In this document: positions 52,214 through 63,480 of the stretch, one piece after another
How the letters are laid out: every line of letters starts with the position of its first letter
How positions within the stretch are numbered: the stretch's first letter is position 1
Source: Planotetraspora sp. A-T 1434
Lineage (GTDB): Bacteria > Actinomycetota > Actinomycetes > Streptosporangiales > Streptosporangiaceae
Assembly: GCF_025420585.1 (NCBI RefSeq)
Contig: NZ_JAOEGB010000026.1
Location: 61,509-125,508 of the forward strand
DNA length: 64,000 bases
Direction: 5' to 3'
Notes under the pieces: generated by a model
Seen by the model: the letters and a program-made list of their open reading frames with translations, nothing else
Database searches by the model: none
What the model was told of the DNA's origin: nothing
Position numbers and translations under genes: made by a program

Positions 52214-54211
52214 TCAGCTCTTCAGGCCTGACTGAACTTCCGTCAGTGCGGTTGGTGAAATATGGCAGCGGATCTTGTGCCCGTTGCCCGTTTGCCGCCA
52301 CGGAGGCGCCTCGGTGTCGCAGATTGATCCGATTTTGCGTGGGCAGCGGGATGCGAATCGGCAGCCCGGCTGATCGGCGGACGGTGGTGGCATCGGGCCG
52401 GTAAGGCGTATGCGGCTGACTTGTTCCGAGGAAGATCGCAGGCGCGGGATCGCCGACACGAGGGCCTCCGTGTAGGGATGGTGCGGGGCGGCGAACACGT
52501 CGGCGGCGTCACCCACTTCGACGAGCCAGCCCAGGTACATGACGCCTATCCGGTCGGCGAGGAAACGCACTACCGCCAGGTCGTGGGAGATGAAGACATA
52601 GCTGGCGTCGCTCGTTCGCCGGGACTCCACGAGCAAGCTCAGGATCGAGGCTTGGACGGACACGTCGAGTGCGGAGACGGGCTCGTCGAGGAGAACGACG
52701 TCGGGGCTTCCGGCGAACGCGCGGCCGATCGCGACTCGCTGCTTTTGCCCACCGGACAGCCGCGTCGTCTTGGACTCCACCTGCGCCTGATCCAGGCGGA
52801 CGCGCCGTGCCAGTTCGAGGACCGTGGTGGCGCTGCCGAGTTTTTTGATGGCACGCTGCAAAATGAAGCGCACGCTGTGTCGGGGGTTGAGCGTGCTGTC
52901 GGGGCTCTGGAACACCATTTGGATCGCGCGTTTCACGTCGCGCGGGCGTCGGGACAGGCGGCGGGGAACGTCGCGTCCGCGCAACAGGATCTGGCCTGCG
53001 GTCGGCTCGACGAGGCCGGCGACAATGCGGGCCAGTGTCGTTTTCCCGCTTCCCGATTCGCCGACGAGGCCGAAAATCTCTCTTTCGCGGATTTCCAGGG
53101 AGAGATCGTGAACGACGGTGGTCTTCTTGTAGGTCTTGGTGACATTGCGCAGTTGTAAGACCTCAGGGCGCCGCTCGGTGACGGGGAACTCGTCGCCCGG
53201 TTCGGTCAGCGGTAGTGGCGATGCGTCGTCCGCGTGGTAGCAGCGCACCGTGCGGCCCTCGCCAAGAGCGATGAAAGGCGGTTCCTCGGCAAGGCAGTCG
53301 GATTGGGCCAGTGGGCACCGTTCCGCGAAGCGGCACCCTTGTGTCACCGTATCCAGGCTCGGCGGTGCACCAGGTATCGGGCGTAGGTAGCGAGTGCCCT
53401 TCGCATCGCCGAATCGCGGGATCGACGCGACCAGTGCGCGCGTGTAGGGATGCTTCGGCGCATGAAGCACCTCCGTTGCTGTGCCTTGTTCGACGACTCG
53501 CCCGGAGTAGAGGATTGTGACCCGGTCGCAGATCCGCGCGACCAGCCCGAGATTGTGACTGATGAGCAGGATGGCGGTGTTCGACTGGCTTCGGATGGTG
53601 CCGATGAGGTCGACGATTTCGGCTTCGACGGTCGCATCCAGCGCGGTTGTGGGTTCGTCGAGGATGAGCAGTTTGGGGTTTGCGGCCAGCGCCATCGCGA
53701 TGACGACTCGTTGCTGCTGCCCGCCGGAGAGCTCATGGGGGTATCGGCGTGCCAGATGTTCCGGTTCGGGCAGGAGAACGCTGCGCAGCATCTCGACGGC
53801 TTGCGAGCGCGCTTCGTCCCCGGCAGCTGAGGTGTGGAACCTGAAGACCTCGGCGATCTGGTCTCCGACCCGCATGGACGGGTTGAGAGCCGAGCCGGCC
53901 TCTTGATACACGATGGCGACGTTGTTGCCGCGTTCGTGCGTGAGTGCGGCGTGGCTGAGCTGCGTCATCTCGACGTCGCCGATTCTGATGGTGCCGCTCG
54001 TGATACGGCCGTTGTCGGGGAGGTAGCGCAGCAACGAGAAAGCAAGCGTGCTCTTGCCCGACCCCGACTCGCCGACGATGCCAAGTGCTTCTCCTGGGCG
54101 GACATCGAGCGACACGTCACGAAGAACGGGGCAGGACTCGCCTCGAACCATGTATGCGACATTGAGGTCCATAACGGACAGCAGTGGCGGTTCTTGTGTC
54201 GCGGTGGTCAC
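52214..54211 (-). CDS. Fused double ATPase of a peptide/nickel-type ABC importer
   Basis: 665 residues, two complete ATPase halves (DppD- and DppF-like). Walker A GESGSGKST and GESGSGKTT, signatures LSGGQQQR and LSGGQKQR, Walker B LLILDEP and VVLLDEP. Each half ends in the oligopeptide-transporter Cys motif (CRFAERCPLAQSDC, CRFASRCPRKIGSIC). The GTG at 54211 overlaps the permease stop (GTGA). Energises uptake by the two permeases. Confidence 0.93.
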   Translation of the reverse strand: MTTATQEPPLLSVMDLNVAYMVRGESCPVLRDVSLDVRPGEALGIVGESGSGKSTLAFSLLRYLPDNGRITSGTIRIGDVEMTQLSHAALTHERGNNVAIVYQEAGSALNPSMRVGDQIAEVFRFHTSAAGDEARSQAVEMLRSVLLPEPEHLARRYPHELSGGQQQRVVIAMALAANPKLLILDEPTTALDATVEAEIVDLIGTIRSQSNTAILLISHNLGLVARICDRVTILYSGRVVEQGTATEVLHAPKHPYTRALVASIPRFGDAKGTRYLRPIPGAPPSLDTVTQGCRFAERCPLAQSDCLAEEPPFIALGEGRTVRCYHADDASPLPLTEPGDEFPVTERRPEVLQLRNVTKTYKKTTVVHDLSLEIREREIFGLVGESGSGKTTLARIVAGLVEPTAGQILLRGRDVPRRLSRRPRDVKRAIQMVFQSPDSTLNPRHSVRFILQRAIKKLGSATTVLELARRVRLDQAQVESKTTRLSGGQKQRVAIGRAFAGSPDVVLLDEPVSALDVSVQASILSLLVESRRTSDASYVFISHDLAVVRFLADRIGVMYLGWLVEVGDAADVFAAPHHPYTEALVSAIPRLRSSSEQVSRIRLTGPMPPPSADQPGCRFASRCPRKIGSICDTEAPPWRQTGNGHKIRCHISPTALTEVQSGLKS

Positions 54212-55143
54212 TTGAATGCCTTCCTGAGTCCGTCGGCTGCGAGGTTCACGCCGACGATGAACGTGGCGAGGGCGATGGCTGGGGCCAGCAGCGCCCACGG
54301 TGATATTTCGATGTAGGCGCGTTGTTCGGAGATCGTTCGACCCCAGTCGGGCGAGGGCGGTTGCAGGCCGAGGCCGAGGAACGACAAGGTCGCCGCCGTG
54401 AACACCGCATATCCCAGGCGGATCGTGGCTTCGACCAGGATCGGGCTGGTGACGTTGGGCAGCACCTCGATCACCATCGAGTAGAAGCCGCGTTCGCCGC
54501 GCATCCGGGCTGCTTCGACGTAGCCCTTCTGGACTTCGTCACCCACCGAACCGCGGACGGTCCTCGCGATCTGCGGGACGAAGAAGACGGCGATGAGGAT
54601 GATGACGTTCAGCAACGATGACCCGAGAATGCCCAGCACCAGCACCGCGACGATGAGCGTGGGAATCGCCATCAGTACGTCGACGGCCCGCATCACGAAG
54701 ATGTCCACGATGCCGCCGTAATAGCCGGCGACCAGACCGAGGAGTGCGCCGAAGATGACGGCCAGGACGGTCGCGGCCGGAGCGATGAGGAGCACGGTCT
54801 GTGCGCCCGCGAGCACCCTCGACAGCACGTCGCGGCCGAGATTGTCGGTGCCCAGCAGATGAGTCGAACTGGGCGGCTCGAACGAGTGGAACGGGTCGAC
54901 CGCCTGCGGATCGTGCGGGACGACGAGCTGCCAGGCAACGCCGACGAAGACCCAGAACAAAACGATCACGGCGCCAGAGATGAAGGTGGGGGACGTCGAC
55001 AGGGTCTTGATGATGTAACGGCGGTTGCGTCGTGTGCGGTTCGCCTTGGCGTCGGCCGGGGATTCTGGCGGGCCGGGATCGTGCGGCGTCTTCCCGTTCG
55101 GCTCCGGCGCGAGGGTCTGGCGGGTGGTGGGCTGGTCGGTCAC
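54208..55143 (-). CDS. ABC importer permease 2 (DppC-like)
   Basis: 311 residues, six membrane segments. STHLLGTDNLGRDVLSRVLA (family motif), EAA loop EAARMRGERGFYSMVIEVLP. A long hydrophilic N-terminus of about 45 residues. GTG start overlaps the upstream permease stop by 4 bp. Confidence 0.93.
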   Translation of the reverse strand: MTDQPTTRQTLAPEPNGKTPHDPGPPESPADAKANRTRRNRRYIIKTLSTSPTFISGAVIVLFWVFVGVAWQLVVPHDPQAVDPFHSFEPPSSTHLLGTDNLGRDVLSRVLAGAQTVLLIAPAATVLAVIFGALLGLVAGYYGGIVDIFVMRAVDVLMAIPTLIVAVLVLGILGSSLLNVIILIAVFFVPQIARTVRGSVGDEVQKGYVEAARMRGERGFYSMVIEVLPNVTSPILVEATIRLGYAVFTAATLSFLGLGLQPPSPDWGRTISEQRAYIEISPWALLAPAIALATFIVGVNLAADGLRKAFK

Positions 55144-56093
55144 CGGGAGCCTCCGAGGCGGATCCGCGGCACGAGCACCGCGAAGAGCACGTCTGCCAGC
55201 AGATTGGCCAGCATGATGATCAGGCCGAGGGTAAGGGTCGCGGCTTGCACGACGGTGATGTCGTGGCCGGTCGCGGAATCGAGCAGGAGCTTGCCAATAC
55301 CGGGATAGTTGAACAGGGCTTCGACGACGATGAGGCCGCCGACCAGGTACGTGACCTGACCGGCGATCACGGCGACGGTCGGCGGTAGCGCGTTGCGCGT
55401 GACATGGCTGACAACGATGCGGCGCCGCGGCAGCCCCTTGAGAATGGCGGTGCGATAGTACGGCTGCGCGAGTACGTCGATCGTTCCCGCTCGCGCCATC
55501 CGGGCGATATAGCCGAACAGGACGAACGCGAGCGGTATGGCGGGCAAGATCAGGTATTCCAACCGCACGCCGAAGCTCGAACCCGGCGGGGCCACAGCTG
55601 TGACCGGGAGCCAGTGCAAGCCGATGGCGAAGATCGACAACAGGACGACGCCGGAGACGAACTCCGGGATGACGGTGAGCGATACGCCACCGATGGAGAC
55701 AAACCTGTCAAGCGGTCCGGCTTCTTTGAGCCCTGCCGCGATGCCCGCGATCACCGAGATCGGGACGATGGTCACGAACGCAACGGCGGCGAGCAGCAGC
55801 GAGTCGCCCAGTCGGCCCATGATCAGGCCGAAGACCGGCTCCTGGAGCAACTGCGACTGTCCCCAGTCGCCGGTGACGAATCCCTTGAGCCAGGAGAAGA
55901 ACCGGGTCCACAGCGGCTGGTCGGCGCCCAGTTTGTGATTCAGGATGGCGACCTGGTCAGCGGTCGCGTGGGGCCCGAGGATGGTTTGGGCGAGGTTGCC
56001 GGGAAGAACCTGACACAACACGAACACCAGCAGGGAGACCACCAGTAGTGTCAGTGCGATCTGGCCGACCCGGCTCAGCAGATAGTTGCGCAT
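55140..56093 (-). CDS. ABC importer permease 1 (DppB-like)
   Basis: 317 residues, six membrane segments. The N-terminus (RVGQIALTLLVVSLLVFVLC) and the EAA-like loop TAILKGLPRRRIVVSHVTRN are of the binding-protein-dependent peptide type. Starts 25 bp after the lipoprotein gene. Confidence 0.93.
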   Translation of the reverse strand: MRNYLLSRVGQIALTLLVVSLLVFVLCQVLPGNLAQTILGPHATADQVAILNHKLGADQPLWTRFFSWLKGFVTGDWGQSQLLQEPVFGLIMGRLGDSLLLAAVAFVTIVPISVIAGIAAGLKEAGPLDRFVSIGGVSLTVIPEFVSGVVLLSIFAIGLHWLPVTAVAPPGSSFGVRLEYLILPAIPLAFVLFGYIARMARAGTIDVLAQPYYRTAILKGLPRRRIVVSHVTRNALPPTVAVIAGQVTYLVGGLIVVEALFNYPGIGKLLLDSATGHDITVVQAATLTLGLIIMLANLLADVLFAVLVPRIRLGGSR

Positions 56094-56118: not shown

Positions 56119-57729
56119 TTAGTGGCTGATCCAGGCGGAGGTCAGCACGATGTTCCCGATTGGCGAGGGCGTGATCCCGTGCACGTTCTTGTTGGTGGCC
56201 TGGGTGAAGTCCTGGAAGAACGCGACGACGACGGGGACCTGATCGTGAAGGATCTTCGCTGCCTGGGTCGCGATCTGCTGACGCTTGGCGGGATCGATGG
56301 TCGCGTCGTATTGGGCCAGCAGCGCGTCGAACTGGGGGTTGGAGAAGCGGGAGGAGTTCCACACACCCTTCGTGATCAGCGAAGCCTCGATCAGCTGCTC
56401 GGGGACCGGGCGCGTTCCCCAGGTCACAATGGTGAACGGCTCCTGCAGCCAGGGGGTGTTCGACCCAGTTCCGTAAAAGGCGTTCGAGGACAGCTGTTTG
56501 ATGTCGATGTTGATTCCGGCCGGTGCGCAGTTCTGTTTGATGAGCGCGGCATAGTCTGGGACGCCGGGTTCGTCGTCGATCGTGAGGGTCGCGGTGAAGC
56601 CATGCGGGTATCCGGCCTGAGCGAGAAGGGTCTTCGCCTGGTCGATGTCACGGGTGCGCTGTGGGATGCCCTGCGGCTGAATCGAGTAGATCTGTGACCA
56701 GAGGTGGTCGTTGGCGATCGTTCCCTTGCCTTGTGTGACTCCCTGCAGCGCTCCCTGGCGGTCGATACAAAGCGCGACCGCCTGACGGACACGCACATCG
56801 TTGAACGGCTTCTGCGTGACCTGCATGTTCAGCGCCAGGTAACCCGCCGACGGGCCGGCGATCACGTTCACACTCGGGTTCCGGTACAGGGAGCTGTCGA
56901 CGTCGATCGCCATGTCCACGGCCCCGCCGGTCAGGGCGAGCGCCTCAGCCTTCGGGTCGGAATAGTAGGTGACGTCGATCTGTGCCAGATACGGCTTCTG
57001 TCCCCAGTAGTCGTTGCGCAACTTCAGGGACGCGCGCTGCGCCGCCTGATAGTTGGTGAGCGTGTACGGGCCGGTGCCGACCGGATTCTTCAGCCAGTCG
57101 CCGGAGTAGTTCGCGGGCAGAATCACGGTGTTGAAGTTCGCCGGTGACACCAGATAGGGAAAGTCCGCATACGGGCGGTCCAAATGGAACACGACCGTGT
57201 CGTCACCGGCTGCCTCCACCTTGCCTTGGCCCAGGGTGCCCTCGAAGTTCGTCAAGGCACCGGAGCTGTTCTTCGGATCGAGCACCCGGTTGAACGAGGC
57301 GACGACATCCTGGGCGGTCATCGGCTGGCCGGTGTTGAACTTCACCCCCTGGCGGAGGGTGAAGGTCCAATTCTGCGCCTTCGCGTCACTCGTCCAGCTG
57401 GCCGCAAGCTGCGGCTCGAGCGTCGACTTGGACCCCACCACGTTGACCAGATACTGCGCCACCTGCTGCACCACGATGATCGACGACCCGTCCGCCATCG
57501 TGATCGGGTCGACCGCGGTCGACGGCTTGACCGCGCCGACCCGGAGTGTCCCGCCGGAAACCGGCGTGGAGCCTCCGGATGAGCCGGGTCCTCCACCGGC
57601 ACCACTACAGCCCGCAAGAGCGAGCGCGGCAACGGCGATCGCGCCCACAGCAGCGCGCACGCCGTACCGAGGTCGCCGGCGTCGCGCCGCGGGCGAGACT
57701 GCCTCTGGGGTTTGGGGTTGCTGGTTCAC
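56119..57729 (-). CDS. Substrate-binding lipoprotein of the ABC importer (SBP family 5)
   Basis: 536 residues. A twin-Arg-like basic N-terminus, hydrophobic stretch and lipobox LAGC (Cys about residue 41), a Gly/Ser linker, then the SBP_bac_5 fold (PQLAASWTSDAKAQNWTFTL, GTGPYTLTNYQAAQRASLKL). GTG at 57729 with GAGGAG 4 nt upstream; longer frames cross the promoter. The family binds peptides, nickel, opines or glycosides, so substrate cannot be read from it. Divergent from iclR. Confidence 0.92.
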   Translation of the reverse strand: MNQQPQTPEAVSPAARRRRPRYGVRAAVGAIAVAALALAGCSGAGGGPGSSGGSTPVSGGTLRVGAVKPSTAVDPITMADGSSIIVVQQVAQYLVNVVGSKSTLEPQLAASWTSDAKAQNWTFTLRQGVKFNTGQPMTAQDVVASFNRVLDPKNSSGALTNFEGTLGQGKVEAAGDDTVVFHLDRPYADFPYLVSPANFNTVILPANYSGDWLKNPVGTGPYTLTNYQAAQRASLKLRNDYWGQKPYLAQIDVTYYSDPKAEALALTGGAVDMAIDVDSSLYRNPSVNVIAGPSAGYLALNMQVTQKPFNDVRVRQAVALCIDRQGALQGVTQGKGTIANDHLWSQIYSIQPQGIPQRTRDIDQAKTLLAQAGYPHGFTATLTIDDEPGVPDYAALIKQNCAPAGINIDIKQLSSNAFYGTGSNTPWLQEPFTIVTWGTRPVPEQLIEASLITKGVWNSSRFSNPQFDALLAQYDATIDPAKRQQIATQAAKILHDQVPVVVAFFQDFTQATNKNVHGITPSPIGNIVLTSAWISH

Positions 57730-57844
57730 ATTTCTCCTCGCTGAGGCAGTAGAGGTTGTTGTGTCCAGTCCGTGCCGCTGGGTGCACAACGAACCTGGTA
57801 CGGGCGTCCACGTCCCCCGGTGATGCATCGAAGGCTAGCCTGGG

Positions 57845-57861
57845 CTACCGTTGCGCGGTAG
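57845..57861. promoter_or_regulatory. Candidate IclR operator CTACCG-N5-CGGTAG
   Basis: A 6-bp inverted repeat with a 5-bp spacer in the 195-bp divergent region, followed by a further CGGTAG at 57876. Suits control of both the importer and the catabolic genes by the IclR protein. Confidence 0.55.
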
Positions 57862-57924
57862 GTTATGCCACAGAGCGGTAGCAAGCAAGCAGATGACGGT
57901 ATAACCGATTCAGAGGACGGATTA

Positions 57925-58608
57925 ATGACAAAAGACGCGGATCCGGGCATTCGCACCCTGGACCGAAGCTTGAGCTTGCTCAGCTTTGTGGTGAACGCCG
58001 AGACTCCGCAGACTCTCGCCGAGGTCGCAGCACAATCGGGCCTACCGTTGAGTACGGTAGCGCGGCTGCTGAAAGGCCTGGAGGCGGCGAACTTCATCGA
58101 TCGCGACTCCAGCGGGCGCTACATCACAGGGTTGGCGTTCCTGCGTCTCGCCGCCGTTGCGATCAACTCCTCGCCCTGGCTGCGTATCGCGGAGCGCCAC
58201 CTGCGCGGGCTCGCGTCGTCCACAGGTGAGTCCGCCTACATGGCCGTGCTGGACGAGACCGGAGAGAACGCCGTCTATGTGCTACGTGCGCCCAGCCCGA
58301 ACCCCATCCGTCACTGGACCTCCTCGGGCCGCCCCGAACCCGTCGACGGCACCGCCATGGGTGCCGCTCTACTCAGCAACGCCGGCCCCGAGGGTTACGT
58401 CGCCGTCGAAGGCGCGGTCACGCCCGATGTCACTGCGATCGCTGCGCCGTTGTACGGATCCGACGGTAGCGTCCGCGCCGCCATCGCCGTCATCGGCCCG
58501 AGCTACCGGATCGCGCCCGAGCGGGTGACCGTTCTCGGGGCCGCCGTCAAAGAACTCGCCGACCTTCTTTCCAAGGACGTGGACCGTTTGGTCCATCAAG
58601 GCGTCTAA
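57925..58608 (+). CDS. IclR-family transcriptional regulator
   Basis: 227 residues. Winged helix (LAEVAAQSGLPLSTVARLLK) and the IclR effector domain (WLRIAERHLRGLASSTGESA to the C-terminus). ATG at 57925 has GAGGA 7 nt upstream; an ATG at 57865 would lie in the operator region. IclR proteins respond to small catabolic substrates. Divergent from the importer and followed after 31 bp by the hydrolase/kinase/lyase genes. Confidence 0.9.
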   Translation: MTKDADPGIRTLDRSLSLLSFVVNAETPQTLAEVAAQSGLPLSTVARLLKGLEAANFIDRDSSGRYITGLAFLRLAAVAINSSPWLRIAERHLRGLASSTGESAYMAVLDETGENAVYVLRAPSPNPIRHWTSSGRPEPVDGTAMGAALLSNAGPEGYVAVEGAVTPDVTAIAAPLYGSDGSVRAAIAVIGPSYRIAPERVTVLGAAVKELADLLSKDVDRLVHQGV

Positions 58609-58639
58609 CCGACACGAACCGGATAGGACCGATCACCGT

Positions 58640-59695
58640 ATGTCTAGCCTCCCTCCCGCCCCCGGCGCCTCGCTCACGCAGCCCAAAGTCGACGCGCTGC
58701 GTGAGCGCGCGCACGCCACGCTGGCAGGCCTGGCCATCGGCGACGCGCTTGGCATGCCCACGCAGATGCTGCCGCGCAAGACCGTGGTTCGCCTGTTCCC
58801 CACGTTGACCGGGTTCGAGCCGGGCCCCCAGGAAAACCCGATCAGCCCGGGGCGACCGGCCGGCGAGTACACCGACGACACACAGCAGGCGTTGATGCTG
58901 GCACAGCTGCTCGTCGAAGGCCACGGCCGCATCGACGCCCACCGCTTCGTCGAGATGCTGGCCGCCTGGGCCAAGGAGGCCGAGATGAACGGGACCGAGC
59001 AGCTCGGCCCATCATCCCGCAAGGCGATCGACGCCATCCTGAACGGTGCGGCCATCGACGATGCCGGCAGCTACGGCGCCACAAACGGTGCTTCGATGCG
59101 CATCGCTCCCATCGGCATCGCCTTCCACGCCGACGACCTCGAGACCTTGATCGACCAGGTGCAGGAAGCATGTGCGCCGACACACAACACCGGCGTCGCC
59201 ATCGCCGGCGCGTCAGCGGTGGCCGCCGCCATCTCCTGCCGCCTGGAAGGGCACTCCTTCGATGAGGCGCTGCAGGTCGCACTGGCCGCGGCCGAAGCCG
59301 GCGCGGAGCGGGGCCACCACTTCAACGGCTCCGATGTCGGAGAACGGATCAAGTGGGCCATCGACTACGTCGCCGACCTCACCGTCGATCAGGTCATCGA
59401 CCGCGTGTCTCGGCTTGTCGGCACAGGCGTGCAAACTCAGGAGACGGTCGCCGCGGCCTTCGCACTCGCCTCCCGATGGCCGAACGACCCCTGGCAGGCT
59501 TGCCTCGCCGCCGCCCAACTCGGCGGCGACACCGACACCGTCAGCGCGATCACCGGTGCGATCGTCGGCGCCGGTGTGACTCCAGAGGCGTTCCCCGACG
59601 GCTCTCTCGCCCAGGTGGAGACAGTCAACAACATGAATCTGCGGAAGGTGTCCGACTCTCTCGTGGATCTCCGCCTCGCAACCGCGAACCGATGA
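58640..59695 (+). CDS. ADP-ribosylglycohydrolase-family enzyme
   Basis: 351 residues. Metal and substrate motifs of the ARH/DraG fold are all present: GLAIGDALG (32-40), EYTDDTQQ with T78-D79-D80-T81, NGASMRIAPIG, and GGDTDT (295-300). The family cleaves N- or O-glycosidic bonds of ADP-ribose or simpler ribosides using two Mg ions. Next to an importer and a sugar kinase, a catabolic glycosidase for an imported riboside is more likely than a protein-modification role (inference). The stop overlaps the kinase start. Confidence 0.88.
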   Translation: MSSLPPAPGASLTQPKVDALRERAHATLAGLAIGDALGMPTQMLPRKTVVRLFPTLTGFEPGPQENPISPGRPAGEYTDDTQQALMLAQLLVEGHGRIDAHRFVEMLAAWAKEAEMNGTEQLGPSSRKAIDAILNGAAIDDAGSYGATNGASMRIAPIGIAFHADDLETLIDQVQEACAPTHNTGVAIAGASAVAAAISCRLEGHSFDEALQVALAAAEAGAERGHHFNGSDVGERIKWAIDYVADLTVDQVIDRVSRLVGTGVQTQETVAAAFALASRWPNDPWQACLAAAQLGGDTDTVSAITGAIVGAGVTPEAFPDGSLAQVETVNNMNLRKVSDSLVDLRLATANR

Positions 59696-60684
59696 CGACC
59701 ACCGCGACGTTTCCGTCCTTCCCGATCAGCAGACTCGTCCGGGTCGGCAGTGCGATCGTGGACATCCTGCTCTACGTCGGCCACTTGCCCACACGGGGCG
59801 GCGACGTCATCTCCTCCAGTTACCTGCACGCCACAGGAGCCGGATTCAACGTACTCGTTGGCGCGCGGCGCCTCGGCCTGCCCGCCGCGTACGGCGGCTT
59901 GATCGGCGACGGCCCGCACGGAGTGAAGATCGCCGCCGACATGGACGCGGCCGGTATTCACCGGCTTCTTCCGGTTCGTTGTGGCCAAGACAGCGGCTTC
60001 TGCGTCGGTTTCGTCGAGCCCGACGGGGAGAGAACCTTCGCCACGATGCCCGGTGTGGACGCCACCATCGGGACCGACGATCTCGCTATGTTGCCGATCG
60101 AGGCCGGCGACGCCGTCTGCGTGTCCGGCTACGACCTCTGCTATCCCGTGTCGGGCGAGTCGATAGCCTCGTGGGTCGGAACCCTCCCGCCGACCACGTT
60201 CCTTGTCTTCGACCCGGGCCCGCTCGTGTCCAGCATCCCCCGGGACCGGTTGTCCCGCATCCTCAACCGGGTCGACATCGTGAGCGCGAACATGGTCGAA
60301 GCAGCAGCCCTCACCGGGCTCGACGAGCCGGCTGCCGCCGCGGTAGCGCTGGCAGCACGAGGCGTCGCGGTTATCGTCCGTGCCGGCGCAAGCGGTGCCT
60401 GGATCGCCTCCGGAACCGAGGTCGCCCACGCGCCGGCCCGGAGGACAACCGTTGTGGACACCACCGGGGCCGGCGACTCGCACCTTGCGGCGCTCGTCGC
60501 CCGTCTCGCGATCGGAGATGACCTTTACCGAGCCGCCCATTGGGCCAACGTTGCCGCGTCCCTCAACGTCGAGCGACGCGGCCCCAGTGCCAAGCCCACC
60601 ATGAACGAGATCGTCGACACGGCAACCCGGACGCCAGAATTCACCTGGCTGATCGCCGGCCGAAGGGATCAACCGCTGTCATGA
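59692..60684 (+). CDS. PfkB-family carbohydrate kinase
   Basis: 330 residues. N-terminal GSAIVDILLYVGHLPTRGGD, Gly-rich ATGAGFNVLVGARRLG and the C-terminal DTTGAGDSH with catalytic Asp262. Phosphorylates a sugar or nucleoside with ATP. Coupled to the preceding gene by ATGA and to the following gene by ATGA. The likely substrate is the sugar freed by the upstream glycohydrolase (inference). Confidence 0.92.
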   Translation: MTTTATFPSFPISRLVRVGSAIVDILLYVGHLPTRGGDVISSSYLHATGAGFNVLVGARRLGLPAAYGGLIGDGPHGVKIAADMDAAGIHRLLPVRCGQDSGFCVGFVEPDGERTFATMPGVDATIGTDDLAMLPIEAGDAVCVSGYDLCYPVSGESIASWVGTLPPTTFLVFDPGPLVSSIPRDRLSRILNRVDIVSANMVEAAALTGLDEPAAAAVALAARGVAVIVRAGASGAWIASGTEVAHAPARRTTVVDTTGAGDSHLAALVARLAIGDDLYRAAHWANVAASLNVERRGPSAKPTMNEIVDTATRTPEFTWLIAGRRDQPLS

Positions 60685-61484
60685 TCCACACGTACGACAG
60701 GCCCGCGTACTGGCTGGAGCAACTCGTCCATCGCCCACAGCGGCGCCTCGACATCTGCGTACAGGTCTTCGCCTCGGCGATCGCCGCCTACAGGGCACCC
60801 TATGAGGCGTATGACCCGGACCTGGCACAAGTGTGGCCGGACCCGTACTCGCGGCCGGTACTCGAAAGCCTGTCGAGCTTGCTACCCCGGATAAGTGAAG
60901 CGGAGTTCAGCTATCAGGCCCCGGTGAGCTTCCGCGTCGTGCCCCGTGTCCTCATGAGCGCCAATCGCCTGGTATCCCGCGCATCCACGCTCGCGACCTC
61001 GATCGGGGCCCCGACGCGGCCTGTGCCGCCCTCGATGGTGACTCCTGTCCTGGACCAATATGTTGCCCTGTGGGCAGACCTCGCCCTGCTCGCCGACAAG
61101 ATGCATGCCGCCTTGCCGCGTAAGGGCGGCAGCCCGTCTCCGCTGCTGCACGAATCCGCCCTCGCCGTCGACCAAGCCCGCGGCCGGGCCCGCCGTACCC
61201 CCATGGTCCTGCACTACCGCTCCGAGTCCATCCTCCCCGACATCCCCGACGCGAAAGCTCAGGCGGCGCACGCCGCCGAAGCCGCGGGCCGGGACGCCGG
61301 CAGAGCGTTCGCCTGCCTCGCGATCGGGGCCCTCGCCGCAGCCGGCACCAACGATCGCGCGAACCCGTTGCAGTCGCTCCACGACCGAGTGCGGGCTCTC
61401 CTGAAGCGCTCCAACCAAGTTGAGGCTGCCCGTGAGCTCGCGGACGATTTCGAGTCCGAGATATCGCAACCGGAGGAAGCGTGA
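60681..61484 (+). CDS. Unknown protein coupled to kinase and lyase-like genes
   Basis: 267 residues, mostly helical, Ala/Arg-rich, no signal peptide or membrane segment. No family recognised. A YEAYDPDLAQVWPDPYSRPV stretch near the N-terminus and an Ala-rich helix (residues 195-225) stand out. Both ends overlap neighbours by 4 bp (ATGA and GTGA), so it is made with them in stoichiometric coupling, perhaps as a partner of the lyase-like protein. Confidence 0.65.
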   Translation: MIHTYDRPAYWLEQLVHRPQRRLDICVQVFASAIAAYRAPYEAYDPDLAQVWPDPYSRPVLESLSSLLPRISEAEFSYQAPVSFRVVPRVLMSANRLVSRASTLATSIGAPTRPVPPSMVTPVLDQYVALWADLALLADKMHAALPRKGGSPSPLLHESALAVDQARGRARRTPMVLHYRSESILPDIPDAKAQAAHAAEAAGRDAGRAFACLAIGALAAAGTNDRANPLQSLHDRVRALLKRSNQVEAARELADDFESEISQPEEA

Positions 61485-62977
61485 CCCTCACCCTGCGCGG
61501 CAAGCAGAGCTTCTCCCTGGAGTCCTTCGAGGCGGTAGCGTTCCATGGAGAGTCCGTCACGCTCAGCGAAGAAGCGCGGCAGTCGATCACCCGGGGCCAC
61601 GAGGCCTTCCAACGCTTCCTGGAGCAGAACGCAGGGAAGTTCATCTACAGCGTCACCAGCGGCAGCGGACCCGACGCCAAGAAGCAGTACTCCCTCGACG
61701 AGGCCCGTGCCCGGCTGGCGACGCAACCGTGGGCCAAGCTGTCCTTCGGAGGCCCCGACCTTCCCAGCTATGTGTCCCGCGGCACGATCTTCTGCCAGCT
61801 CGCGATCCTGATCGAAGGCCACACCGCGATGGACCCCCGCAAGGCGGAAGCCATCGCGCGAATGCTCGACGGCGACGTTCCCAGCCTGCCCGAGCGAGGA
61901 CTCACCGCCGGCGGCGAGCTGATGTCGCTGTTCACCTTGTTCGGCCACCTCACCCTCCAACCCGATGACGGGCTCGGAGCGGGCAACGGCGATAACGGAT
62001 CTCCCCTGAGCGCAGCGATGGCGGCCTGTGCCGCGATCTTGTCACCGCGCCGGCTCGCCTTCGTGGAGCGAGTCCTGGCCCTGCTGCTCACCGCGCTCGG
62101 CTGCACCGATCTCGCCGCGGCCGCGGCCACACAGAGGCACTGGGATGACGCGGACGAAACGGGCGCGCGGCGATTCGCCGAACTGGGCGGTGAGCCGTCC
62201 GGGCCCAATTCGCCGTCCGCGCTTGAACTGTTCGCTTCCGTCTTCTATCTCGTGAGTGCCGCACGACGCGCCGTCGCCAACCTTCAGGAGATCGCTGAAC
62301 TGTGCATGCACGAGCGCGGTTCCAACCCCTCGTATCTGCCCCCGTCCCCCCGTCACCCGTTCGGGCGCGTGATTTCGCACGGCGGGTACCACAACGCGCT
62401 TGTCGCACCAGCGCTCGACGAGATGGCCACTGCATGGACCAACCTGGGATCGATGCTGCACCTGTTGATCATCCGGGCTCATCAAGGGTGGGCGTCGGGA
62501 CTGCCCGACAGGCTTCTTCCGCCCGGAACCAACTACGTGACCGGGAGTTCCACAACATATCTTGAATACGTACCCAATGACTTCGTCGCTGAGATGCAAC
62601 GTCTCGCCCAGCCCACTCTTCTTAATCCGTGGGAGCTGGCGGCATCCACACAGGACGACGTCGGCATCCCCGCTCCACTTGCGTTCAGAATGGAGCGCCA
62701 GGTCGCCGCCTGCTTTGACGCAACCGTGGTCACCGCCGCCGTCACGGCCTCTCAAGCACTGTCATTGGGCAATACGCCTCTGGAGCGCGAACAGGGTGCG
62801 CTGCTTGATGCAATCCGAAAGCTGTTTCCCGTGGTATCCAGCCTACGCAATCTCGGCGACGAGCAAGCGAAAGCACTGGCATCGATGTCGGCCGCCATCG
62901 AAACGGGCGAAGGCCCGCTGGCGCCCTACACCATCCGGCCAACCACACCCTCAGGCTCCCTGACATCCGATCGCTAA
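61481..62977 (+). CDS. Histidine/phenylalanine ammonia-lyase-fold protein lacking the MIO serine
   Basis: 498 residues. The fold follows aromatic amino acid lyases: Tyr56 in YSVTSGSG (normally YGVNTGFG), the cofactor loop RGLTAGGEL at 139-147 (normally GSVGASGDL), and QDD at 391-393 before the long C-terminal helices (normally QED). The self-cyclising Ala-Ser-Gly reads Ala143-Gly144-Gly145 with one residue fewer, so the MIO electrophile should not form. It may be a lyase using another mechanism, a binding protein, or a dead copy; its place in a tight operon argues against decay. Confidence 0.8.
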   Translation: MTLTLRGKQSFSLESFEAVAFHGESVTLSEEARQSITRGHEAFQRFLEQNAGKFIYSVTSGSGPDAKKQYSLDEARARLATQPWAKLSFGGPDLPSYVSRGTIFCQLAILIEGHTAMDPRKAEAIARMLDGDVPSLPERGLTAGGELMSLFTLFGHLTLQPDDGLGAGNGDNGSPLSAAMAACAAILSPRRLAFVERVLALLLTALGCTDLAAAAATQRHWDDADETGARRFAELGGEPSGPNSPSALELFASVFYLVSAARRAVANLQEIAELCMHERGSNPSYLPPSPRHPFGRVISHGGYHNALVAPALDEMATAWTNLGSMLHLLIIRAHQGWASGLPDRLLPPGTNYVTGSSTTYLEYVPNDFVAEMQRLAQPTLLNPWELAASTQDDVGIPAPLAFRMERQVAACFDATVVTAAVTASQALSLGNTPLEREQGALLDAIRKLFPVVSSLRNLGDEQAKALASMSAAIETGEGPLAPYTIRPTTPSGSLTSDR

Positions 62978-63129
62978 CCCCCTCGAGAAGCACGCGGTTG
63001 TCCGCGATGATCGGCCGACCCGGCCGGCTGCTCGTTGATCGCAGCGCCGCCGTACCCGGCAGCGCACTCGGCGCCACCTGAGCACCTGCACTCATGAGCA
63101 GCCACCGATGCTCGTGGAGGGTAGTGACC

Positions 63130-63480
63130 ATGCGACCCCTGCGAGCACTGACCCGCTACGTCTCCCGATACGAGCGCGGAACTTTCGCCGCGTCGATCGT
63201 CGGCCCGTACGTGCTGATCGTCATCGCCGCGACCGTCTACGTGGAGATCGCCACACGTCAGCCGGGCAGCCAAGGTTTGGAAGCGCTCGTGCTGTTCGCG
63301 GTCACCTCTCCGACCTCGGAACTTCTCATGTTCCTGCCGCTCGGCTCATTGCCTGACCCGTTGTTCTCCCTGCTGATATTCACCGCCGCCGGACTGTTTC
63401 AGGCGTGGCTTCTCTGGCTGATTGCACGCGGACGCAGGAAGAACAAGGCCTCCGGCGGGGGCACTCCGGCTCCGGGATGA
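63130..63480 (+). CDS. Small membrane protein, SCO4225-like
   Basis: 116 residues with three hydrophobic segments (about 19-38, 50-70 and 78-101) and a basic C-terminus. VTSPTSELLMFLPLGSL between segments resembles actinomycete SCO4225-type membrane proteins (pattern memory). GGAGGG lies upstream of the ATG at 63130. The last codons (ASGGGTPAPG) come from a family B repeat, so the natural C-terminus may have been replaced. Confidence 0.65.
   Translation: MRPLRALTRYVSRYERGTFAASIVGPYVLIVIAATVYVEIATRQPGSQGLEALVLFAVTSPTSELLMFLPLGSLPDPLFSLLIFTAAGLFQAWLLWLIARGRRKNKASGGGTPAPG

Follow-up and report, generated by a model that had tools for sequence, protein, structure and literature searches.

The window, a 64,000-nucleotide stretch of the Planotetraspora sp. 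A-T 1434 genome, contains five plus-strand genes that face an ABC importer on the opposite strand:

52214-54298, minus strand: importer ATPase that seems to join two ATPase domains in one chain (named by eye; homologues at the related loci L001 and L002)
54208-55143, minus strand: importer permease 2 (open reading frame named by eye; homologues at L001 and L002)
55140-56093, minus strand: importer permease 1 (open reading frame named by eye; homologue at L002)
56119-57828, minus strand: importer substrate-binding protein (SBP), SBP_bac_5 (Pfam and NCBIfam)
57865-58608, plus strand: IclR-family regulator (Pfam and NCBIfam), with an alternative in-frame ATG start at 57925
58640-59695, plus strand: ARH/DraG-family glycohydrolase (PF03747; Pfam ADP_ribosyl_GH, E 1.4e-61) with the motifs YTDDT and GGDTDT
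59692-60684, plus strand: PfkB (ribokinase-type) sugar kinase (PF00294; Pfam E 2.7e-40; NCBIfam) with a GAGDS motif
60681-61484, plus strand: putative small lyase-fold subunit, 267 aa, comprising the helical core of histidine ammonia-lyase (HAL) only
61481-62977, plus strand: putative large lyase-fold subunit, 498 aa, MIO-less (Pfam Lyase_aromatic, PF00221, E 5.9e-30)

The open reading frame coordinates bear out the initial annotation of four plus-strand genes (58640-62977) joined by three 4-bp overlaps, which read ATGA between the ARH and PfkB genes, ATGA between the PfkB and small lyase-fold genes, and GTGA between the small and large lyase-fold genes. Its IclR, ARH, PfkB and lyase-fold assignments likewise agree with Pfam and NCBIfam, and GC content by codon position is of coding type in all five plus-strand genes (third-position GC 0.77-0.85). 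The importer is of the Dpp/Nik type, as judged from the Pfam and NCBIfam matches of the SBP, which was the one importer gene run against Pfam, and by eye for the ATPase and permeases. Operon and importer together form a plausible catabolic cluster.

The product of 60681-61484, initially described as an unknown protein, proved to be a second, truncated lyase-fold protein. An unrelated identity is ruled out by its seven non-orthologous matches, which are PF00221 proteins, and by its fold, which is that of HAL; its Pfam score lies under the cut-off, and NCBIfam likewise assigns it no family above threshold. A confident structure model of the small protein retains the HAL core, and the protein lacks the N-terminal domain (HAL residues 1-192) and the Phe329-His330 loop. 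The large protein is assigned to PF00221 by both Pfam and structure, with an AF2 model of pLDDT 89.1 and pTM 0.91.

Division of the catalytic residues

The following sites, numbered as in P. putida HAL where HAL residues are named, distinguish the two lyase-fold proteins:

60915-60935, plus strand: QAPVSFR, codons 79-85 of the small subunit, equivalent to HAL Gln277...Arg283 and the sole catalytic motif kept there
61646-61648, plus strand: Tyr56 of the large subunit, equivalent to the catalytic Tyr53 of HAL, kept
61907-61915, plus strand: Ala143-Gly144-Gly145 of the large subunit, where HAL has the Ala-Ser-Gly that forms MIO; the loop matches that of ergothionase in length and is shorter than the HAL loop by one residue
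62195-62240, plus strand: expected Gln277-Arg283 site of the large subunit, motif lost (SPSALELFASVF; alignment register unsure)

The large protein retains Tyr53, Asn195, Asn313-Pro314, Tyr329-His330 and Gln413-Asp-Asp and has lost Gln277, Ser281 and Arg283. The small protein retains Gln277-x-Pro-Val-Ser-x-Arg283 plus an Asp aligned at position 415, and no other tabulated position. All site residues are found in neither polypeptide, the large one lacking Gln277 and Arg283 and the small one the rest, and on alignment the two HAL-fold proteins complement each other, having retained different parts of a single set of catalytic residues.

The large protein had been called MIO-less from the outset, and rightly so, as Ala-Gly-Gly stands in place of the Ala-Ser-Gly from which MIO ammonia-lyases and aminomutases form their cofactor, in a loop shorter by one residue. 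This catalytic loop comprises 16 residues in 152 of the 153 family rows that have it and 15 in the other (compared columns, duplicates included); over the same columns it comprises 17 residues in HAL and 16 in ergothionase. Ergothionase (ergothioneine trimethylamine-lyase, 6s7j), described as lacking MIO (PMC13405746), is also the best Foldseek match of the large subunit (E 3.5e-17, 17% identity), practically tied with aminomutases and ammonia-lyases, which come next with E-values a few times higher. Both proteins share the HAL fold, the short loop and the lack of MIO. However, ergothionase carries Tyr, Gln and Arg on one polypeptide, whereas the window's pair divides them between chains. The pair also shares PF00221 and its fold with histidine, phenylalanine and tyrosine ammonia-lyases and aminomutases, and the Tyr53, Asn195, Gln277 and Arg283 positions of the MIO enzymes are recognisable across it. 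Unlike these enzymes it has no Ala-Ser-Gly, and it would comprise two unlike subunits, whereas HAL and phenylalanine ammonia-lyase (PAL) are described as homotetramers (PMC11432326, PMC12737037). Because of the short loop without Ala-Ser-Gly and the likeness to ergothionase, we do not file the family under MIO enzymes, and by analogy it may work like ergothionase.

Related loci and residue loss across the family

Two residue sets were compared across relatives, set 1 comprising Tyr53, Asn195, Asn313, Pro314 and the aromatic residue at 329, and set 2 comprising Gln277 and Arg283. A genome scan with strict patterns, which limited the yield, recovered three related loci in MAGs of Actinomycetes (L001), Acidimicrobiales (L002) and Gammaproteobacteria (L003). 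Each carries a tandem pair of full-length lyase-fold genes (484-506 aa) that share a 4-bp overlap, so that the lyase-fold genes overlap at all four pair loci read, the window included. The a gene comes first in the window, L001 and L002, and the b-clade gene first in L003. Importer genes related to those of the window adjoin the pair in L001 and L002 (SBP 32-33% and ATPase 46-47% identical), and none was seen beside the L003 pair. The a proteins of L001 and L002 have lost Tyr53, Asn195, Asn313-Pro314 and Phe329-His330 and keep Gln277...Arg283; their b proteins keep the first set and Arg283 and have lost Gln277. Both lyase-fold proteins of L003 are intact.

Four members for which no second copy was available show no loss at the set positions (L036, L037 and the plasmid loci of Rhizobium jaguaris, L039, and R. 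tropici, L040, the latter being the two Rhizobium records of a plasmid search); each is the sole match within its own genome or plasmid record, with L037 ending at a contig end. Three further pairs, presumed to be neighbours from contigs of equal length (P0009/P0033, P0003/P0044 and P0039/P0141), are likewise intact at these positions, with Phe for His330 in P0033. A fourth, P0017/P0099, paired in the same way, has lost Arg283 in both proteins and Gln277 also in P0017, which speaks against a simple rule of complementary loss.

The lyase pair looks rare. The small protein has matches in 2 of 100 relatives, namely the own genome and one weak match, and the large protein in two of the 341 genomes searched within the family (E 1e-12) and two of the 396 searched across the phylum (E 1e-20), own genome included. 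A search with P0105 in three genomes of the class of genome G651 gave one match, and scans of IMG/VR found no relative. Within partial literature coverage, no report of a heteromeric pair of this kind among MIO-less relatives was found by title or abstract.

The small gene could be a decaying, non-catalytic remnant of a duplicated lyase gene, with the large protein working alone or having lost its function. The missing N-terminal domain and the very long branch of the small protein (2.9-3.5 in the trees) fit such a remnant, as does its faster change between two strains: Planotetraspora sp. GP83 keeps the split form with proteins 94% (small) and 98-99% (large) identical to those of the window, encoded on contigs of equal length and differing at 15 of 267 positions in the small protein and at 11 of 498 in the large one, 8 of these at residue 475 or beyond. 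Yet the small frame is open and of the same length in both strains, none of the 15 differences affects the Gln-Arg motif that the large protein has lost, the start and stop overlap with neighbouring genes, and GC by codon position is like theirs. As the confident HAL-core model and the milder complementary loss in L001 and L002 also speak against decay, we consider a remnant unlikely. Because of the very long branch, the small protein is taken as an orthologue of the a genes by its place in the gene order and by its residue pattern.

The family was widened by a profile search (120 of 129 matches listed) and comprises 149 rows, 136 of which were counted as full length or as the window's small protein, with both window proteins included. 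Left out before this count were 5 outgroup or distant rows, 6 duplicates and 13 partial rows; rows almost identical to one another, such as L001b and P0010, stayed in. Rows that have lost at least two of the five set-1 positions form class 1, and rows that have lost Gln277 and/or Arg283 form class 2. On this basis 98 rows are intact, 3 carry one set-1 change, 21 belong to class 1 (including P0016, which may be a sequence error), 14 to class 2 and none to both. The sets were picked after the first loci had been seen, and those loci are included in the 136 rows, so that loss of the class-defining positions follows by construction; the informative part lies in the positions retained by each class and in its further losses.

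This was compared over the 30 columns whose residue is shared by at least 97% of the 98 intact rows. With the window's small protein set aside, class 1 (20 rows) keeps Gln277, Val280, Ser281 and Arg283 in 20/20 and additionally loses Phe42 and Gly60. Class 2 keeps Tyr53, Asn195, Asn313, Pro314, Phe42 and Gly60 in 14/14, with Val280 kept in 2 rows, Ser281 in 11 and Arg283 in 4; these 4, in which Gln277 is lost, include the b proteins of L001 and L002. Gly54 is partly lost in both classes. On a 151-row tree (143 rows labelled) the state changes at least five times for class 1 and at least six times for class 2. A class-2 clade (P0107-P0110 and P0115), a class-1 clade of 11 rows (P0130-P0140) and the intact P0105 form a 17-row group that looks like a candidate second independent split, known from protein sequences alone.

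The same counts bear on whether the two genes might encode separate homomeric proteins, each with a new function, whose complementary losses are coincidental. Such coincidence would be compatible with the few loss events on the tree (11 changes), with a naive 2x2 association of losses at a Fisher p of 0.08 and with the Arg283 kept in four class-2 rows. The association test is not strong because events are few, and the weight rests instead on the full retention of each half by the opposite class. This retention, together with the overlap of the lyase genes at every pair locus read and the intact state of all four members without a second copy, makes coincidence quite unlikely in our view.

Proposed enzyme and pathway

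From their residue patterns, the products of 60681-61484 and 61481-62977 are likely to be obligate partners in a single MIO-independent lyase of mixed subunits. In plant PAL, each site takes its Gln-Tyr-Arg motif from another chain than its catalytic Tyr, and its Phe and Glu from a third; complete plant PAL isoenzymes can form mixed tetramers. If the pair forms a HAL-like tetramer, in which three chains contribute to each site, an assembly of two large with two small subunits would contain two complete composite sites and two empty, dead ones, provided that the PAL chain assignment holds; in that case the two lost sets are just what a 2+2 assembly of this kind would permit. The small subunit would supply the Gln/Arg motif, which anchors the substrate carboxylate in HAL, and the large subunit the remaining kept positions. 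HAL is described as a homotetramer with each of four sites built by three monomers (PMC11432326, PMC9002059). Activity of Geobacillus kaustophilus HAL is reported to be abolished when Tyr52, His82, Asn194 or Glu411 is changed and lowered when Gln274, Arg280 or Phe325 is changed, and Gln274 is proposed to fix the positions of Arg280 and Tyr52 (PMC11432326).

In addition to the lyase genes, the locus encodes an ARH glycohydrolase and a PfkB kinase that belong to a conserved module. The window's ARH is a PF03747 protein with both Asp/Thr motifs (the DD and GGDTDT motifs are intact), whose residues in YTDDT and GGDTDT we take to be metal ligands, and its PfkB is a PF00294 protein with an intact GAGD motif; the NCBIfam equivalog cut-offs for DraG and Tri1 were not reached by the ARH. 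Among 296 genomes of the class, 13 (own included) encode an ARH at E ≤1e-40. Nine of the 12 other loci are more than 40% identical, and all nine have a PfkB gene on the same strand, side by side with the ARH gene in seven (one cut by a contig end) and separated by one permease gene in two. A purine/cytosine-type permease occurs in 3/9 (two by Pfam, L029 by eye). Among the three more distant loci, L035 has a weak partial PfkB match joined to ARH, L033 a weak PfkB-like gene approximately 5 kb off, and L034 no PfkB in the stretch fetched. The window resembles the YegTUV-type module of E. coli in its ARH (YegU) next to a sugar kinase (YegV), but has a Dpp/Nik-type ABC importer and IclR instead of the nucleoside-type permease YegT and GntR. 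The function of E. coli yegTUV is given as not known (PMC10819704).

The initial annotation had joined all four genes in a single pathway, and had named a failure of their homologues to stay together elsewhere as grounds for refuting it. The ARH-PfkB part stands, as a conserved module with intact motifs. A conserved four-gene cluster is not supported, as ARH, PfkB and the lyase pair were seen together in the window's genome only: in the stretches fetched, neither ARH nor PfkB was found at the other lyase-pair loci (0/3), nor a lyase-fold gene at the other ARH loci (0/12).

Genes beside the lyase-fold relatives point tentatively to N-methyl or betaine compounds. L002 encodes sarcosine-oxidase-type proteins, a formaldehyde-activating-enzyme-type protein and a HAL/ergothionase-type gene with a short loop, whose best PDB match is T. 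cruzi HAL, with ergothionase second. L001 encodes an amine-oxidase-like flavoprotein and a hydantoinase that also matches ergothioneine-utilisation ErtD models, all below NCBIfam cut-offs, and L003 encodes ectoine hydrolase/creatinase-type enzymes. Furthermore, a glycine-betaine-type ABC importer lies directly behind the R. jaguaris lyase-fold gene; none was seen in the corresponding place in R. tropici.

For the window itself, these observations suggest a glycosylated nitrogen compound as a possible substrate. After uptake by the importer, an N- or O-glycosidic bond would be cleaved by ARH and the released sugar phosphorylated by PfkB, and the heteromeric lyase would act on the rest by eliminating a good leaving group, like the MIO-less ergothionase; the linkage of importer, ARH, PfkB and lyase in one pathway is the weakest step. 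The pathway first proposed, in which an amino-acid or imidazole compound bearing ribose or another sugar is imported and the lyase takes the aglycone, would be compatible with a heteromeric lyase and fits the tight overlaps, the single regulator, the facing importer and the conserved ARH-PfkB module. As the full gene set was seen in the window's genome only and the relatives' neighbours hint at N-methyl or betaine catabolism instead, we regard it as possible but somewhat doubtful.

Taken as a whole, the locus is best explained by a complementary heteromeric, MIO-free lyase that would catalyse an elimination and operate with the importer, ARH and PfkB, a reading to which we assign a probability of about 0.7. 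Chances appear evenly balanced for the broader hypothesis that a large soil-bacterial MIO-less family repeatedly became obligate heterotetramers through complementary half-site loss after duplication and eliminates amines from betaine-like compounds, with the window as an extreme end point in which a 267-residue core lends Gln/Arg and the reaction is coupled to a module that cleaves glycosides.

What is new here is a MIO-free, probably heteromeric lyase whose catalytic residues are divided between two proteins, and other members of its family show signs of such a split. If true, one active site has been genetically split over two unlike subunits, and more than once, which would provide a clean natural case of gene duplication turning a complex obligatory. 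Genes labelled 'histidine ammonia-lyase' or 'hypothetical protein' would thereby gain a testable function, and the locus would point to a family of MIO-free lyases comparable to ergothionase.

Residue patterns in the lyase-fold family

The complementary loss of catalytic residues has an exception, as Arg283 is gone from both P0017 and P0099, two family proteins that are likely partners, each listed with a contig of length 6546. Serine occupies position 143 in 12 family rows, including the intact member L036 and P0021, P0022 and P0027, and in the Ser143 rows inspected it lies in a Gly-Ser-Gly motif within the short loop. The genome of the window encodes a further lyase-fold protein (G000:C74:27403-28917; identity 27-31%), which is perhaps its ordinary HutH.

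ARH-PfkB modules and the operon flank

Immediately 3' of the operon lies one further gene:

63094-63480, same strand as the operon: small membrane protein of the DUF7942/SCO4225 family

In three other genomes (L024, L029 and L031), an ARH-PfkB module is accompanied by a cytosine/purine/allantoin-type permease, identified through Pfam for L024 and L031 and by visual inspection for L029. L024 also carries a GntR regulator, as L031 apparently does, and the modules are reminiscent of yegTUV. A distant ARH frame (L035:3767-5299) contains a weak PfkB-like stretch (E 3e-6) immediately before the ARH part and is perhaps a fused kinase-hydrolase.

Neighbours of lyase-fold genes in other genomes

Two MAGs and one plasmid provided the following regions:

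L002:3-8538 (Acidimicrobiales MAG): gene set 5' of the complementary pair
L001:3284-8386 (Actinomycetes MAG): third, intact lyase-fold gene close to the complementary pair
L039:12001-17037 (Rhizobium jaguaris plasmid): MIO-less lyase-fold gene; immediately behind it, a glycine-betaine-type ABC importer with an OpuAC domain

The L002 set encodes sarcosine-oxidase-type proteins, a formaldehyde-activating-enzyme-type protein, a zinc alcohol dehydrogenase, a cysteine dioxygenase-rhodanese protein and a HAL/ergothionase-type protein with the short loop. The L001 region also contains a hydantoinase gene and an FAD amine-oxidase-like gene. The glycine-betaine-type importer is absent at the corresponding place beside the R. 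tropici relative (L040); in R. jaguaris, the adjoining importer hints at quaternary-ammonium substrates.
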